A stretch of DNA of 64,000 nucleotides, from NCBI GenBank assembly GCA_025201365.1, contig JAIXMF010000023.1, forward strand, positions 149,270 through 213,269. Reading direction: 5' to 3'. Each line of letters begins with the position of its first letter. Position 1 is the stretch's first letter. Origin of the DNA: Syncephalis plumigaleata. Taxonomy: Eukaryota > Zoopagomycota > Zoopagomycetes > Zoopagales > Piptocephalidaceae. This document shows, in pieces, positions 602 through 63,822 of the stretch. Made by a program: the position numbers and the translations under genes. The notes below the pieces were generated by a model. The model saw nothing but the letters and a program-made list of their open reading frames with translations. It searched no databases and was not told where the DNA came from.

Positions 602-2076
602 GTCGATATCACACATGTTTATTCAATAAATAACCGGGCACTATTTAGTATTGATGTAATGGAACCATGCGGAATAATGACTTGATCACCTATATGTATG
701 TATGTATCTACTTGATTTATCGGCCTATCCTAATAACATCTTGAAAGTCCTAGTATAATCATATGGTCAACTAACTAGTCAGCTATTAGTGTACACTCTA
801 CTCTACATACATGTCCATCGAGAGAGAAGTGTGTGTGTGCACCACGTTCAAGTTAACACACGATAGGCTGTGATCAATGGTTAAACTATAGTAGTCTTTT
901 TTATACATTACATTTAGTCAGGGGAGAGTCGTGCTGTGTAGTCAGCATGTCAACTTACAGCCTATTCGTCATCATCGCGTGTAAATAATCGGGTATCATA
1001 TTGTAATCAATGGGTCATATACTGTCATCTATGCATTAACTTACGGGCTATTATGGTAATTGTAGATTAATAAGATGTCACGTTAACATTAGAACTTTAT
1101 CATTTTAATCTACACGCTTACTTACCATCTTACATGATCATAAATAGATCGAATGCCATAGTAATCAGGTTAGTACGCCGTGTATTGAATCATAAGAGGA
1201 AACATGCTAACTTACAACCTATTACGTATGACAATAGATGAGTCGTATACATACATCATGTTACAATTAGCAAGCTATATGTTATATTCGGATGATTCAC
1301 TTACAATCTATGAATGATGTATCGAGTTGATGATCCATTTTAGTAAAGGTAAATATTTACTCTATTCTGCAGGTTAACTTACAGGCTACCATGCATAATG
1401 ATTACACATGGATCGTATGTGTGTGCGACATTGTATAAATTAGTACGGGTGATATCATCGATGCACTCACTTACCTAATGTCATTTACAAGCATGCATGG
1501 ATTGAGCGCCATTTTTTTTGCAATTAGTCTATGAATGCGTTGCAATTGTAATGGCAACTTACAGGCTATGGGTATGATTACACGTAGACAAGATGTTACA
1601 TGGCAATTAGCGGTGTTTTACACGTTACATTTGACGCGTTGACTTACGGGCTATAATGTGTACGCGTGTATGATGGGATGACATTATCATTAGCATATGT
1701 GTAGTACAGCTAGTAATGTGACTTACAATTGCTTATGAAATAGATATTTAGAACGTTGATTCGATTATCATTAGCATAGGATATGTTGCATCGACAGACT
1801 AACTTACGAGTTGCTATTAACAAAATTATTTGTAAATAAAGTATGCGTTATAATGTGATTAGCATAGCAAATGATAGTTTAACAATATGAGCTTACATTC
1901 CTCTGACGCTATTGAGCAATAGAATCAAATGGTAAAACATTACGATTAATTCACGAATAGAGCGATAAAGCTAGTAGAAACATACCACGACGCTCCAATT
2001 TGGGATGCGCATCAACCGTGCTTAGACTGGCCACGATGGCGAGGATGGTAAAAGCGGTAACGACAGAGAACTTCAT
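602..2076 (-). CDS. micro-exon secreted peptide gene A (candidate novel family)
   Basis: Exon 1 (2076-1986) encodes a clear signal peptide (MKFSVVTAFTILAIVASLST VDA) and then HPKLERR, ending in phase 1 at a GTATGT donor. Downstream lie twelve donor sites at a regular 78-92 bp spacing (first bases 1896, 1807, 1726, 1647, 1562, 1474, 1382, 1304, 1215, 1125, 1044, 958). Nearly all are preceded by a CTAAY branch motif, and the acceptor is the first AG after it. Apparent exons: 1902-1897 AGGAAT, 1813-1808 CAACTC, 1731-1727 CAATT, 1650-1648 CCC, 1565-1563 CCT, a zero-length junction at 1475/1474, 1385-1383 CCT, 1307-1305 ATT, 1218-1216 GTT, 1128-1126 ATG, 1047-1045 CCC, 961-959 GCT. Read together after ERR they give EESTPIPPPIVMPA. 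The terminal exon is uncertain: an acceptor near 900 would give TTIV and a stop. An AATAAA lies near 625. Not recognised as any known family; transcript evidence would settle the exons. Confidence 0.6.
958..1985 (-). repeat. array of ~85-bp intron modules bounded by 0-6 nt exons (gene A)
   Basis: Each module on the minus strand reads GTAAGY, 20-40 unrelated bases, CTAAT/CTAAC/CTAAA, about 40 bases without AG, then AG. Only the splice signals recur; the sequence between them is not conserved, so this is not an ordinary tandem repeat. Donor-to-donor intervals are 89, 81, 79, 85, 88, 92, 78, 89, 90, 81 and 86 bp. Confidence 0.7.
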
Positions 2077-3247: not shown

Positions 3248-3616
3248 TAGACCGAATTACAAAAAGAATAGAACGAACTAAAGGAAAGGTACTAGTGTAA
3301 ATTTAGAGAGCATGAAGACACGTTGTCTTTATTTTTATTCATATTCATTATTGATGGCATCCATCGTACTACCGTAAGTTGACATTACAATCGTCATATG
3401 ATATTATCAATGATGCGCTAACCTCATATGTCAGTAAGGACATATTCAAAATAAGATTAATATTAAATCTATCATCAACACACACACACACACACACACA
3501 TCTATTACATTTCTATATTATCGTTTTTTCCTCGTCTTACTGATCACGTAGTTACGCGTGGTGCATTACTATTATTGCTATTGTTACTAGCTATTGCTGC
3601 TGTTTTATTATTCATC
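3248..3616. other. divergent intergenic with CA microsatellite
   Basis: Separates the minus-strand zinc-knuckle gene from the plus-strand ZNF830-like gene, so it probably holds both promoters. A (CA)n tract occupies about 3479-3500. Nothing else is recognised. Confidence 0.6.
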
Positions 3617-62369: not shown

Positions 62370-63822
62370 ATGAAGCTATCTATTATTGCTGTTGCTATCG
62401 TCACTATTATGGCCGTAGCTAGACTGGTCGCCGTCGATGCCGTACCCGTATTGGATCGTCGTGGTACGTTGACTTATGGACGCATCGATTGTGATACTAA
62501 TATTATCTTACAATTTATTCGATCATCAATGGCTATTGATAGCTCGTAGGTTTATACATCATTCTCATTGAAGTACTCTATCGGAAATACTAACCCTATC
62601 GTGATGTCTATTCCATATACAATGTTGGCAATGCTAGCTCGTAAGCTACTCTAACGATTGTCACGTTTACTGGGCTAACTCCATTATGAATTGTAATCGC
62701 GTACAAACATTTTTAAAGAACCTGTAAGTTAATGCATGCGATTTTGGTGTACCATGAATTAATTGTAGCGTGACACTTTTTAACCCGTGTATGATTATAT
62801 TAACAGGCTGTAAGTTAAACACGACAACTACACTTGACAATACACTAATTGTTATGTGGTATACGTTTCACATATTATTATTACGGAGCAGAGGGTAAGC
62901 TAAAATATACATAGATTAGCCGAAAATGAATGATGTGCTAATGTAAATGTGGAACACGATCCGGACATGCCAATATACTAGAGAGTAAGTTGACAGTTTG
63001 GATGTAGTCTACAAGGGGCTAATTGCAGCATGGCATACACGCATCATATGCGTTTACATCTATGCAATAGAGAGTAAGCTAATTTGTCGCTCACAATGTA
63101 GGGTGTACTAATTGTATGGTGATATGTGAGCAATAGGATGTAGGTTAACGGGCTAGGCATAGTAACAAAGTACTGACCGTGATATGACTTGTGATCTACA
63201 CACGATGCTATGCAATAGGACGTAAGTGACCATTTGATTGTATTCTATGATACGCTAATTGTAACGTGGCATAACAATCTATGCACAACTATGATAGTCG
63301 GTAAGCTAATATACTATAGATGGTGTACACGATATGCTAAACATCATCTGGCGAATGACTCGTGTATAATTATGAAGGCGACCGTAAGCTATCATTTCAA
63401 CTATAGTATATTATAACATGCTAATTCAATACGATATACCCTCTACGTATCATAGCATTAATCGGTGAGTCGCGTATTGTACGAGGCTATGCTAGTATTT
63501 TACTTTTAACTAAGCGATTAAAAGGAAGGGCTAAGCCATCGTTGTCCGTGTAAAAAGGGAATTATTGGGAATCGGTAAGTATAGAATTCGGGATTACTAC
63601 ACCTAATAGAAAGATTACACACTTGTTAACGCGAAATAACCACAGAACAAAAAGCAAGAGCATCCTCAAGTAGATATTATAGGTAATCAAGTCAAGGATG
63701 CATTGGTACTACAAGACTCTCATTTAGCGTCCATGCCATTCAAGTCATTATTCCTTGGATCCATTTCATAAACATCAAATAATACCTAGTTGATTTATTG
63801 AATAAATATGTGTGATATTGAT
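62370..63822 (+). CDS. micro-exon secreted peptide gene B (paralogue of gene A)
   Basis: Exon 1 (62370-62463) encodes a signal peptide ([24 protein letters not shown]) and VPVLDRR, ending in phase 1 at a GTACGT donor, exactly as in gene A. Apparent exons follow: 62543-62545 CTC, 62638-62640 CTC, 62719-62723 AACCT, 62807-62809 GCT, 62889-62894 CAGAGG (or 62892-62894 AGG), 62982-62984 AGA, 63071-63073 AGA, 63137-63139 GAT, 63219-63221 GAC, 63298-63300 TCG, 63378-63383 GCGACC, 63456-63464 CATTAATCG. Joined after DRR they read APQPA(Q)RRRDDSATH and a stop inside the 9-nt exon. If that exon is skipped, a longer 3' exon ending at 63574 would be used instead. The 3' end (63741-63822) matches gene A and carries AATAAA. 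The product would be a basic/acidic secreted peptide with dibasic sites; function unknown. Confidence 0.6.
62464..63580 (+). repeat. array of ~85-bp intron modules bounded by 3-9 nt exons (gene B)
   Basis: Donor positions 62464, 62546, 62641, 62724, 62810, 62895, 62985, 63074, 63140, 63222, 63301, 63384, 63465 and 63575. The spacing is mostly 79-95 bp. Most modules contain CTAAT/CTAAC/CTAAA about 40 bases before the AG. As in gene A, only splice signals recur. Confidence 0.7.

Follow-up and report, generated by a model that had tools for sequence, protein, structure and literature searches.

Tandem arrays of one-codon exons in a predicted secreted-peptide gene family of Syncephalis plumigaleata

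Can a gene be composed almost entirely of exons that are one codon long, and is such a gene spliced into a peptide? The question is raised by gene A of the mycoparasitic fungus Syncephalis plumigaleata, located at the beginning of a 64,000-nucleotide (nt) stretch (assembly GCA_025201365.1, contig JAIXMF010000023.1, positions 149,270 to 213,269 of the forward strand), which is referred to below as the window and whose first letter is position 1. An earlier note on this DNA had described a signal-peptide exon followed by twelve GTAAGY donors 78-92 nt apart; this arrangement has been confirmed, and it lies on the minus strand, which the note did not state. Gene A is, very probably, a member of a large S. 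plumigaleata family of secreted-peptide genes in which the mature part of the product is encoded by one codon per tandem repeat.

Architecture of gene A

The predicted product of exon 1 consists of a signal peptide and a short pro-segment with the dibasic pair RR, and the exon is followed by the donor GTATGT. The twelve GTAAGY donors start at 1896, 1807, 1726, 1647, 1562, 1474, 1382, 1304, 1215, 1125, 1044, and 958, with the spacing of 78-92 nt, and an additional GTAAGC at 1121, the thirteenth, overlaps the donor at 1125. The splice parser gave 13 introns, each 73-89 nt long, and between them internal exons with lengths of 12, 6, 5, 3, 3, 0, 3, 3, 3, 3, 3, and 3 nt in this order, so that the exon lengths of 3, 5 and 6 nt proposed earlier hold for most of them, but not for the first (12 nt) and for the one of zero length. 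The exon lengths do respect the frame, as had been claimed: exon 1 ends in phase 1, the following 12+6+5 nt restore phase 0, and the later 3-nt exons, eight in number, are whole codons. Together with the base remaining from exon 1, the 47 internal nucleotides give 16 predicted codons, which fits the 14-16 inserted codons expected in the note. The predicted mature peptide is ASEESTPIPPPIVMPA, then FNH and the stop, the last acceptor being uncertain. The features of gene A, taken from the splice parse unless another basis is given, are as follows.

1986..2076, minus: exon 1 (91 nt), start ATG at 2076, encoding MKFSVVTAFTILAIVASLSTVDAHPKLERR plus 1 nt, ending in phase 1
1909..1985, minus: intron 1, GTATGT...TAG, 77 nt
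1897..1908, minus: exon 2, 12 nt
1814..1896, minus: intron 2, 83 nt
1808..1813, minus: exon 3, 6 nt, CAACTC
1732..1807, minus: intron 3, 76 nt
1727..1731, minus: exon 4, 5 nt, CAATT, back to phase 0
1651..1726, minus: intron 4, 76 nt
1648..1650, minus: one-codon exon CCC (Pro)
1566..1647, minus: intron 5, 82 nt
1563..1565, minus: one-codon exon CCT (Pro)
1475..1562, minus: intron 6, 88 nt, the best intron-model match of the window (nhmmer E 1.7e-7)
1386..1474, minus: intron 7, 89 nt, abutting intron 6 with the zero-length exon AG/GTAAGT
1383..1385, minus: one-codon exon CCT (Pro)
1308..1382, minus: intron 8, 75 nt
1305..1307, minus: one-codon exon ATT (Ile)
1219..1304, minus: intron 9, 86 nt
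1216..1218, minus: one-codon exon GTT (Val)
1129..1215, minus: intron 10, 87 nt (also nhmmer E 3e-6)
1126..1128, minus: one-codon exon ATG (Met)
1048..1125, minus: intron 11, 78 nt
1045..1047, minus: one-codon exon CCC (Pro)
962..1044, minus: intron 12, 83 nt
959..961, minus: one-codon exon GCT (Ala)
886..958, minus: intron 13, 73 nt, acceptor uncertain, as an AG 10 nt upstream also leads to an in-frame stop
874..885, minus: terminal coding exon TTT AAC CAT TGA, acceptor choice uncertain
618..623, minus: AATAAA in the context TTATTGAATAAA, common to the 3' ends of the family (from the sequence)

The segment 631-613 of gene A also matches the 3' region of the related locus L042 (blastn E 0.017, weak by itself). 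The zero-length junction at 1475/1474 (minus) is the sole case among the 992 internal exons parsed in the family; it is possibly a ratchet point or a unit whose codon has been lost.

The regularity of the array is beyond chance, as the note had held. With a donor chain defined as successive GTAAGY 70-95 nt apart, each with an AG not more than 6 nt upstream, the longest chain of gene A comprises 12 donors, whereas none of 2000 shuffles of this stretch, made with the dinucleotides preserved, gave a chain of more than 2. Throughout the genome, the pattern ATAG-NNN-GTAAGY-N62-92-AG-NNN-GTAAGY was matched 1394 times (762+632), compared with 0+1 matches when read backwards, and the chance origin of the array was rejected on both grounds. 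The repeat unit of about 83 nt is made of an intron of about 80 nt, with the strong GTAAGT donor, the CTAAY branch site and the TAG or CAG acceptor, and of a 3-nt exon; the consensus of the array introns, derived from 150 of them, is GTAAGTTAtCATTCTGAttGTAATgaATGAnGTACTAATtAcaaTATGaCACAtGATCCACaTATGTTtnTGTATgATAG. When the intron model was built without gene A and gene B, the second member of the family in the window, 18 of its 20 matches in the window at E<=1 fell in the arrays of these two genes, and the reversed window gave 0 matches at this threshold. The two weak matches elsewhere, at 3374 (plus, E 0.03) and 23068 (plus, E 0.8), are possibly ordinary introns of array-intron origin. The last base of the one-codon exons in the family is T in 329, C in 263, A in 126 and G in 121 cases; since there is no preference for G, recognition of the donor must depend on the hexamer at the start of the intron, and 691 of 940 introns have GTAAGT there.

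The gene family and the coding character of its exons

The search with exon 1 of gene A found a similar exon at 67 places (E<=10), and the family consensus of exon 1 gave 177 candidates, with 150 scored places at E<=1. Of the 67 loci, gene A (L001) and 42 others could be parsed as micro-exon genes, and gene B brings the number to 44; L068, a longer cut of the locus L028, and L069 were added later, giving 46 entries, near-copies included. The 24 loci unparsed as arrays comprise 17 of the 20 that had been set aside, from which L022, L038, and L039 were returned to the parsed set, and 7 that lacked a match to the start pattern. The 46 entries contain 1038 introns and 992 internal exons, 839 of which are 3 nt long, and in 942, the zero-length one counted, the length is divisible by three. 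The 50 exceptions are of 2, 5, 14 or 16 nt and are mostly the phase-setting exon, since most relatives use a 5-, 2- or 14-nt exon to reset phase 1 to 0. The longest run of consecutive one-codon exons is 45, and the genome as a whole may contain about 3000 of them, haplotype copies included, if the 1394 pattern matches are scaled by the ratio found in the parsed genes, 839 such exons to 389 matches. By inspection, the family N-terminus is MKFS followed by a hydrophobic stretch and small residues. S. plumigaleata is a zoopagomycete, and members of the genus Syncephalis are mycoparasites, as stated in two genome papers (PMC10386755, PMC6784888).

The coding character of the one-codon exons is indicated by the distribution of stop codons. 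Among 750 exons of 3 nt (44 loci, near-copies included), 0 stops were observed versus 16.3 expected from the position composition, P ~7e-8, the value being too strong because of the near-copies. In runs of three or more consecutive 3-nt exons, the stops in the three frames numbered 0/697, 7/647, and 86/647, and in the 39 non-redundant runs there were 0/556 in frame, 4/517, and 71/517. The stop lies in the last parsed exon in 30 of the 46 entries, and in genes A and B it comes beyond the last intron.

Deposited proteins of sister genes provide the second line of evidence. The splice parser was fixed before it was compared with them, and the prediction for L057, ...RRAPQEPPCPPIHWKDGKTYEMHFENGKGCMFSNGTPPGWISPSDPIGPVQPKKH, was made before any deposited protein was seen; L068, a near-copy at C362:262196 (minus), gives the same prediction, with RRG. 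The protein P0121 (BDF22DRAFT_685685), from the contig of L068, reads ...RRGPPPPIHWKDKTYEMHFENGKGCMFSNGPGWISPSDIGPVQKETLSS... and holds 38 of the 41 predicted one-codon exons in order. Similarly, 40 of the 45 predicted one-codon exons are held in order by P0126 (BDF22DRAFT_685769; C362:301756, L069), with L069 having been parsed by the same parser after P0126 was seen. An ab initio gene finder is hardly likely to fit dozens of 3-nt exons into a model, and we therefore infer that the models of P0121 and P0126 rest on transcripts.

The predicted peptides themselves are patterned. The motif C..CC..C occurs in 7 of 29 predicted mature peptides that were taken as complete, compared with 0.47 expected from residue shuffling, and 0 of 2000 shuffles reached 7; the 29 peptides are those remaining after near-copies were dropped that have the stop in a parsed exon (including L030 and L054), together with gene A, gene B and L055, in which the stop falls beyond the last parsed intron. 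The same motif is present in the intron-free paralog L023 (RRAPQGLSCDKEKCCIMDSDICRPSSAKTHA), and the peptide start APQ of the family is shared with intron-free paralogs and gene B. Other predicted peptides are short and of low complexity, such as HHGHHGGHH and AKAKAKAK, which is what the duplication of units would give. In Pfam, eight predicted or deposited proteins gave none above the cut-off and three weak matches below it, and the search of PDB sequences with P0126 gave 0 matches at E<=1.

These results bear on the possibility that the array is one composite intron, in which the 3-nt pieces are spacers leaving little or nothing in the mRNA. In recursive splicing, an AG stands next to GTAAGT, and the removal of one intron regenerates the donor; the zero-length AG/GTAAGT junction of gene A is of exactly this form, and AG-NNN-GTAAGY looks like a ratchet point that leaves 3 nt behind. 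However, mere spacers should not be free of stops in just one frame (0/556 versus 71/517), nor should they recur in order in deposited proteins or give the C..CC..C pattern, and purely recursive removal of the whole array is extremely improbable. Unlike in recursive splicing, a codon is left here at almost every step, the true zero-length junction being parsed once.

Another reading accepts the splicing and supposes it to be deliberately variable, the single-codon exons being often skipped so that each gene would give a cloud of peptides that differ from each other in single residues. Both P0121 and P0126 are without several predicted one-codon exons, and the frame is kept whenever a 3-nt exon is skipped; but such gaps would also result if aligners and gene predictors were unable to place exons of 3 nt, as is to be expected, and the evidence seen gives no case of two isoforms from one gene. 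We hold frequent skipping to be rather unlikely. The preferred reading, one codon delivered by each unit, also agrees with the proposal of the earlier note that splicing assembles a short secreted peptide, which is supported through the family (stops, deposited proteins, paralogs, and splice sites) and not through transcripts of gene A.

Several observations extend the family. When the databases were searched with a profile made from two intron-free proteins and eight predicted spliced ones, 29 proteins matched at E<=1, and 18 of these bear the name Syncephalis plumigaleata. Weaker matches, relatives of exon 1 in environmental contigs, were P0136-P0138, P0142-P0145, and P0147-P0149, and in P0136, P0138, P0142, P0143, and P0145 RRG is followed by a stretch similar to TSGHGHIN, which looks like the beginning of intron 1; this suggests that the one-codon-exon architecture may exist in uncultured relatives. 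The locus L070 (G000:C1:1410900-1418400, minus) has 76 parsed introns, a first exon MELSADNNNNNN... with no evident signal peptide and a coiled-coil-like stretch, and its parse loses the frame at several points; as this array gene has no evident signal peptide, one-codon exons may extend beyond secreted peptides.

Homologous introns, intron-free relatives and splice-site conservation

The array introns are related to each other, the comparison covering the introns of the peptide gene family. A match at E<=1e-3 was found for 752 of 768 introns, with the median best identity of 87% (near-copy genes left out). For mid-array introns with a match, the best one was in the same gene in 166 of 653 cases (25%) versus 3.8% expected, often only a few units away, and in another gene in the other 487. 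The near-copies L046 and L047 are distinguished by a single gap of 162 nt, the size of two units, and intron-plus-codon units are thus seen to be gained or lost between them.

The arrays might alternatively have arisen by introner-like insertion at each codon boundary of an intron-free ancestral peptide gene, and not by the duplication of units. The similarity of introns across genes, expressed in the median identity and in the 487 best matches found elsewhere, is in line with such an origin, and so is the existence of intron-free paralogs; but the enrichment of best matches within the gene and the two-unit gap of L046/L047 point to duplication, and the intron-free copies could equally be derived from cDNA. 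We regard the insertion origin as unlikely, and the duplication of units remains the preferred explanation.

The intron-free paralogs demonstrate the junctions at the DNA level. In L023, L025, L027, L031, and L037, CGTCGTG runs directly into CTC, CCC or GTC and then into nine exon-3-like bases, exon 1 of L031 being shorter than in the others; for instance, CGTCGTG-CTC-CTCAATTTG of L037 corresponds to /CTC/CCCAATTTG/ of the micro-exon gene L034, where slashes mark exon borders. At the 3' end, TAAGCA is joined directly to A[AG]CAAGAC[AG]AGGACA in all four intron-free loci tested (L025, L026, L031, and L037), and among the 32 parsed entries with T[AG]AGC[AG] at their end, 31 have the arrangement TAAGC[AG]/GT..51-55 nt..AG/ before the same 3' sequence (up to 4 substitutions). 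The sole miss, L059, ends in AAG, outside the pattern. A length of about 87 nt for the last intron, to which the minimum intron length of the parser had led, was rejected, since comparison with the intron-free paralogs gives 51-55 nt.

L025, L026, L031, and L037 have neither the first introns nor the intron of the 3' untranslated region (UTR), at exact junctions, while L023 and L027 are without introns yet differ at the 3' junction. The intron-free paralogs may be cDNA-derived copies or the ancestral form. The conserved intron of 51-55 nt directly after the stop (TAAGCA/GT), seen in 3' UTRs such as that of L042, might affect nonsense-mediated decay or regulation.

The conservation of splice sites was estimated in nine near-duplicate pairs (L051 used twice), with the site positions being six of the donor and three of the acceptor. 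Differences were found at 8 of 1966 site positions versus 395 of 15390 positions of intron interiors (P 1.5e-12, sites called in one copy). Because sites are called only where the consensus fits, the count was repeated with the sites called in either copy. It gave 9/1969 (P 9e-12), and when the identical pair L051/L053 was left out, 9/1618 versus 395/12621 (P 5e-12). Splice sites are kept, while the codons have about the same freedom to change as the intron interiors.

A further possibility is that the arrays are a decaying or non-coding tandem repeat (an intron-derived satellite), with the genes being pseudogenes or not spliced in this way. The units are indeed tandemly duplicated, and early in-frame stops occur in 2 of the 46 parsed entries, L030 and L054, which are possibly pseudogenes. 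However, a satellite would not be expected to show between near-copies a rate of difference about 5- to 6-fold lower at splice sites than in the interiors of introns, nor the absence of in-phase stops, nor T[AG]AGC[AG] kept before the last intron in 32 parsed entries, and this origin is considered very improbable.

Against the reading of one coding codon per unit there stand, besides these two entries with early stops, several other points. The parser also calls introns in reversed arrays (mean 5.2, maximum 15, with 16.1 observed), and in 72 other segments of the window it calls at most 4; the reversed arrays are therefore a poor null for this parser, and the array as such is more certain than any one of its exon borders. 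The codon-usage correlation gave no distinction between the frames (0.14, 0.18, and -0.13), and 14 of the 46 entries have no stop in the parsed exons, mostly since the fetched stretch was too short. The exon differences between near-copies, 21/804, are about those of intron interiors, 395/15390 (11/751 without the pair L048/L049, which differs by a shifted unit), and as the two substitution rates are equal, there is no clear purifying selection on the codons. As to the deposited proteins, two models (P0121 and P0126) were shown to follow the arrays, each missing a few of the codons predicted; P0126 departs from the prediction at its start, between RRG and NPING, and the C-terminus of P0121 leaves the predicted frame because a 2-nt exon is absent there. 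P0133, from the contig of L012, reads into intron 1, P0134, from the contig of L020, departs from exon 1 early, and a search for deposited proteins of genes A and B, weak because it had a single candidate, gave none. The exact TAAGCA-AACAAG junction at the 3' end was not found in the intron-free L023, L027, and L005. All of the evidence consists of genomic DNA and deposited protein models.

Gene B, known systems and the proposed mechanism

Gene B, at the other end of the window, carries an array of the same type. Its longest donor chain is 6 (9 donors), with at most 2 in 2000 shuffles, its array exons are CTC, CTC, AACCT, GCT, AGG, AGA, AGA, GAT, GAC, TCG, and GCGACC, and its predicted peptide is ...VLDRR-APQPARRRDDSATH. 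The features of gene B, from the splice parse unless another basis is given, are as follows.

62370-63811, plus: gene B, micro-exon peptide gene with the family APQ start and a conserved 3' UTR
62370..62463, plus: exon 1, 31 residues plus 1 nt
62464..63455, plus: micro-exon array, 12 introns
63456..63464, plus: terminal coding exon CAT TAA TCG, then GTGAGT
63655..63758, plus: 3' UTR, homologous to that of L042 (83% over 104 nt, E 9e-25)

The GTGAGT after the terminal exon may be the donor of an intron in the 3' UTR, such as the relatives have. The whole window gave 0 matches in Rfam at the gathering score, and a scan for bacterial-type promoters, which is unsuited to a fungus, gave no signal over shuffles.

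The earlier note had considered such genes an undescribed class. In agreement with this, no earlier description was found among the literature matches listed, and exons or introns are not mentioned in the main-text passages of the two genome papers (PMC10386755, PMC6784888). The micro-exon genes (MEGs) of schistosomes code for secreted or membrane-anchored proteins, with the coding region made mostly of short symmetric exons of 6-36 bp and with protein variants supposed to arise by alternative splicing, as given in PMC5825161. The exons in multiples of three are shared with them, the products here are likewise predicted to be secreted, and variation may be generated here too. Unlike in MEGs, the exons here are 3 nt, below that range, and occur in runs of up to 45, with homologous introns of near-constant length in tandem, and the genes are those of fungi and not of animals. 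None of the 29 proteins from the profile search is named MEG, the MEG sequences themselves not being compared directly.

The aphid bicycle genes, with the megacycle gene, are likewise large families, whose members evolve fast, contain many micro-exons, are hard to find by sequence and encode putative secreted effectors, as described in PMC9168663; they have about 17 exons on average, with internal exons almost all in phase 2. By contrast, the one-codon exons of this fungus are in phase 0 after a phase-restoring exon, and a subset of the peptides carries C..CC..C. The multiplication of many similar introns in one fungal genome is shared with the introner-like elements, but these, according to PMC4457414, are introns gained in individual genes, whereas here they form tandem arrays with one codon per unit and signs of duplication.

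Among fungal microexons, Xlr2 of Trichoderma contains a single functional one, in a transcription-factor gene, in contrast to the arrays of S. plumigaleata. In that paper (PMC11121469), it was stated in 2024 that functional microexons were previously undescribed in filamentous fungi, and the earlier fungal reports are cited there as limited and tested only in Schizosaccharomyces pombe.

As to the mechanism, exon 1 would encode the signal peptide and the pro-segment ending in the dibasic RR, the 5-nt (or 2- or 14-nt) exon would set phase 0, the one-codon exons would spell the mature peptide, and the terminal exon would give the stop. There is hardly room for U1 and U2AF together on an exon of 3 nt, and the introns are therefore probably removed one after another, by intron definition and in a ratchet-like order, so that every codon joined would bring the following GTAAGT to the end of the exon as it grows. 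The anatomy of the gene would then suggest Kex2-like cleavage at RR and the secretion and release of the peptide, which, also from the mycoparasitic lifestyle, may act in the interaction with the fungal host.

As each unit adds exactly three in-phase nucleotides, its duplication or loss would add or remove one residue without a frameshift, and such residue-wise gain and loss would allow rapid evolution of the peptide. On balance, we favour the view that the tandem repeat is read as one codon per repeat, with the spliceosome working along homologous introns at one amino acid per intron removed and with the peptide varying by single residues through unit duplication or loss and, possibly, through the skipping of one-codon exons.

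The arrays push the lower limit of exon size down across a whole gene family, and they present a natural test of how the spliceosome handles exons too small for U1 and U2AF together. They would also offer a mechanism by which a secreted peptide may be changed one residue at a time without a frameshift. Finally, of the deposited models in this family, at least two abandon the array completely, and codons are missing from the two that keep to it, which suggests that a large number of candidate secreted peptides can be overlooked by standard annotation.

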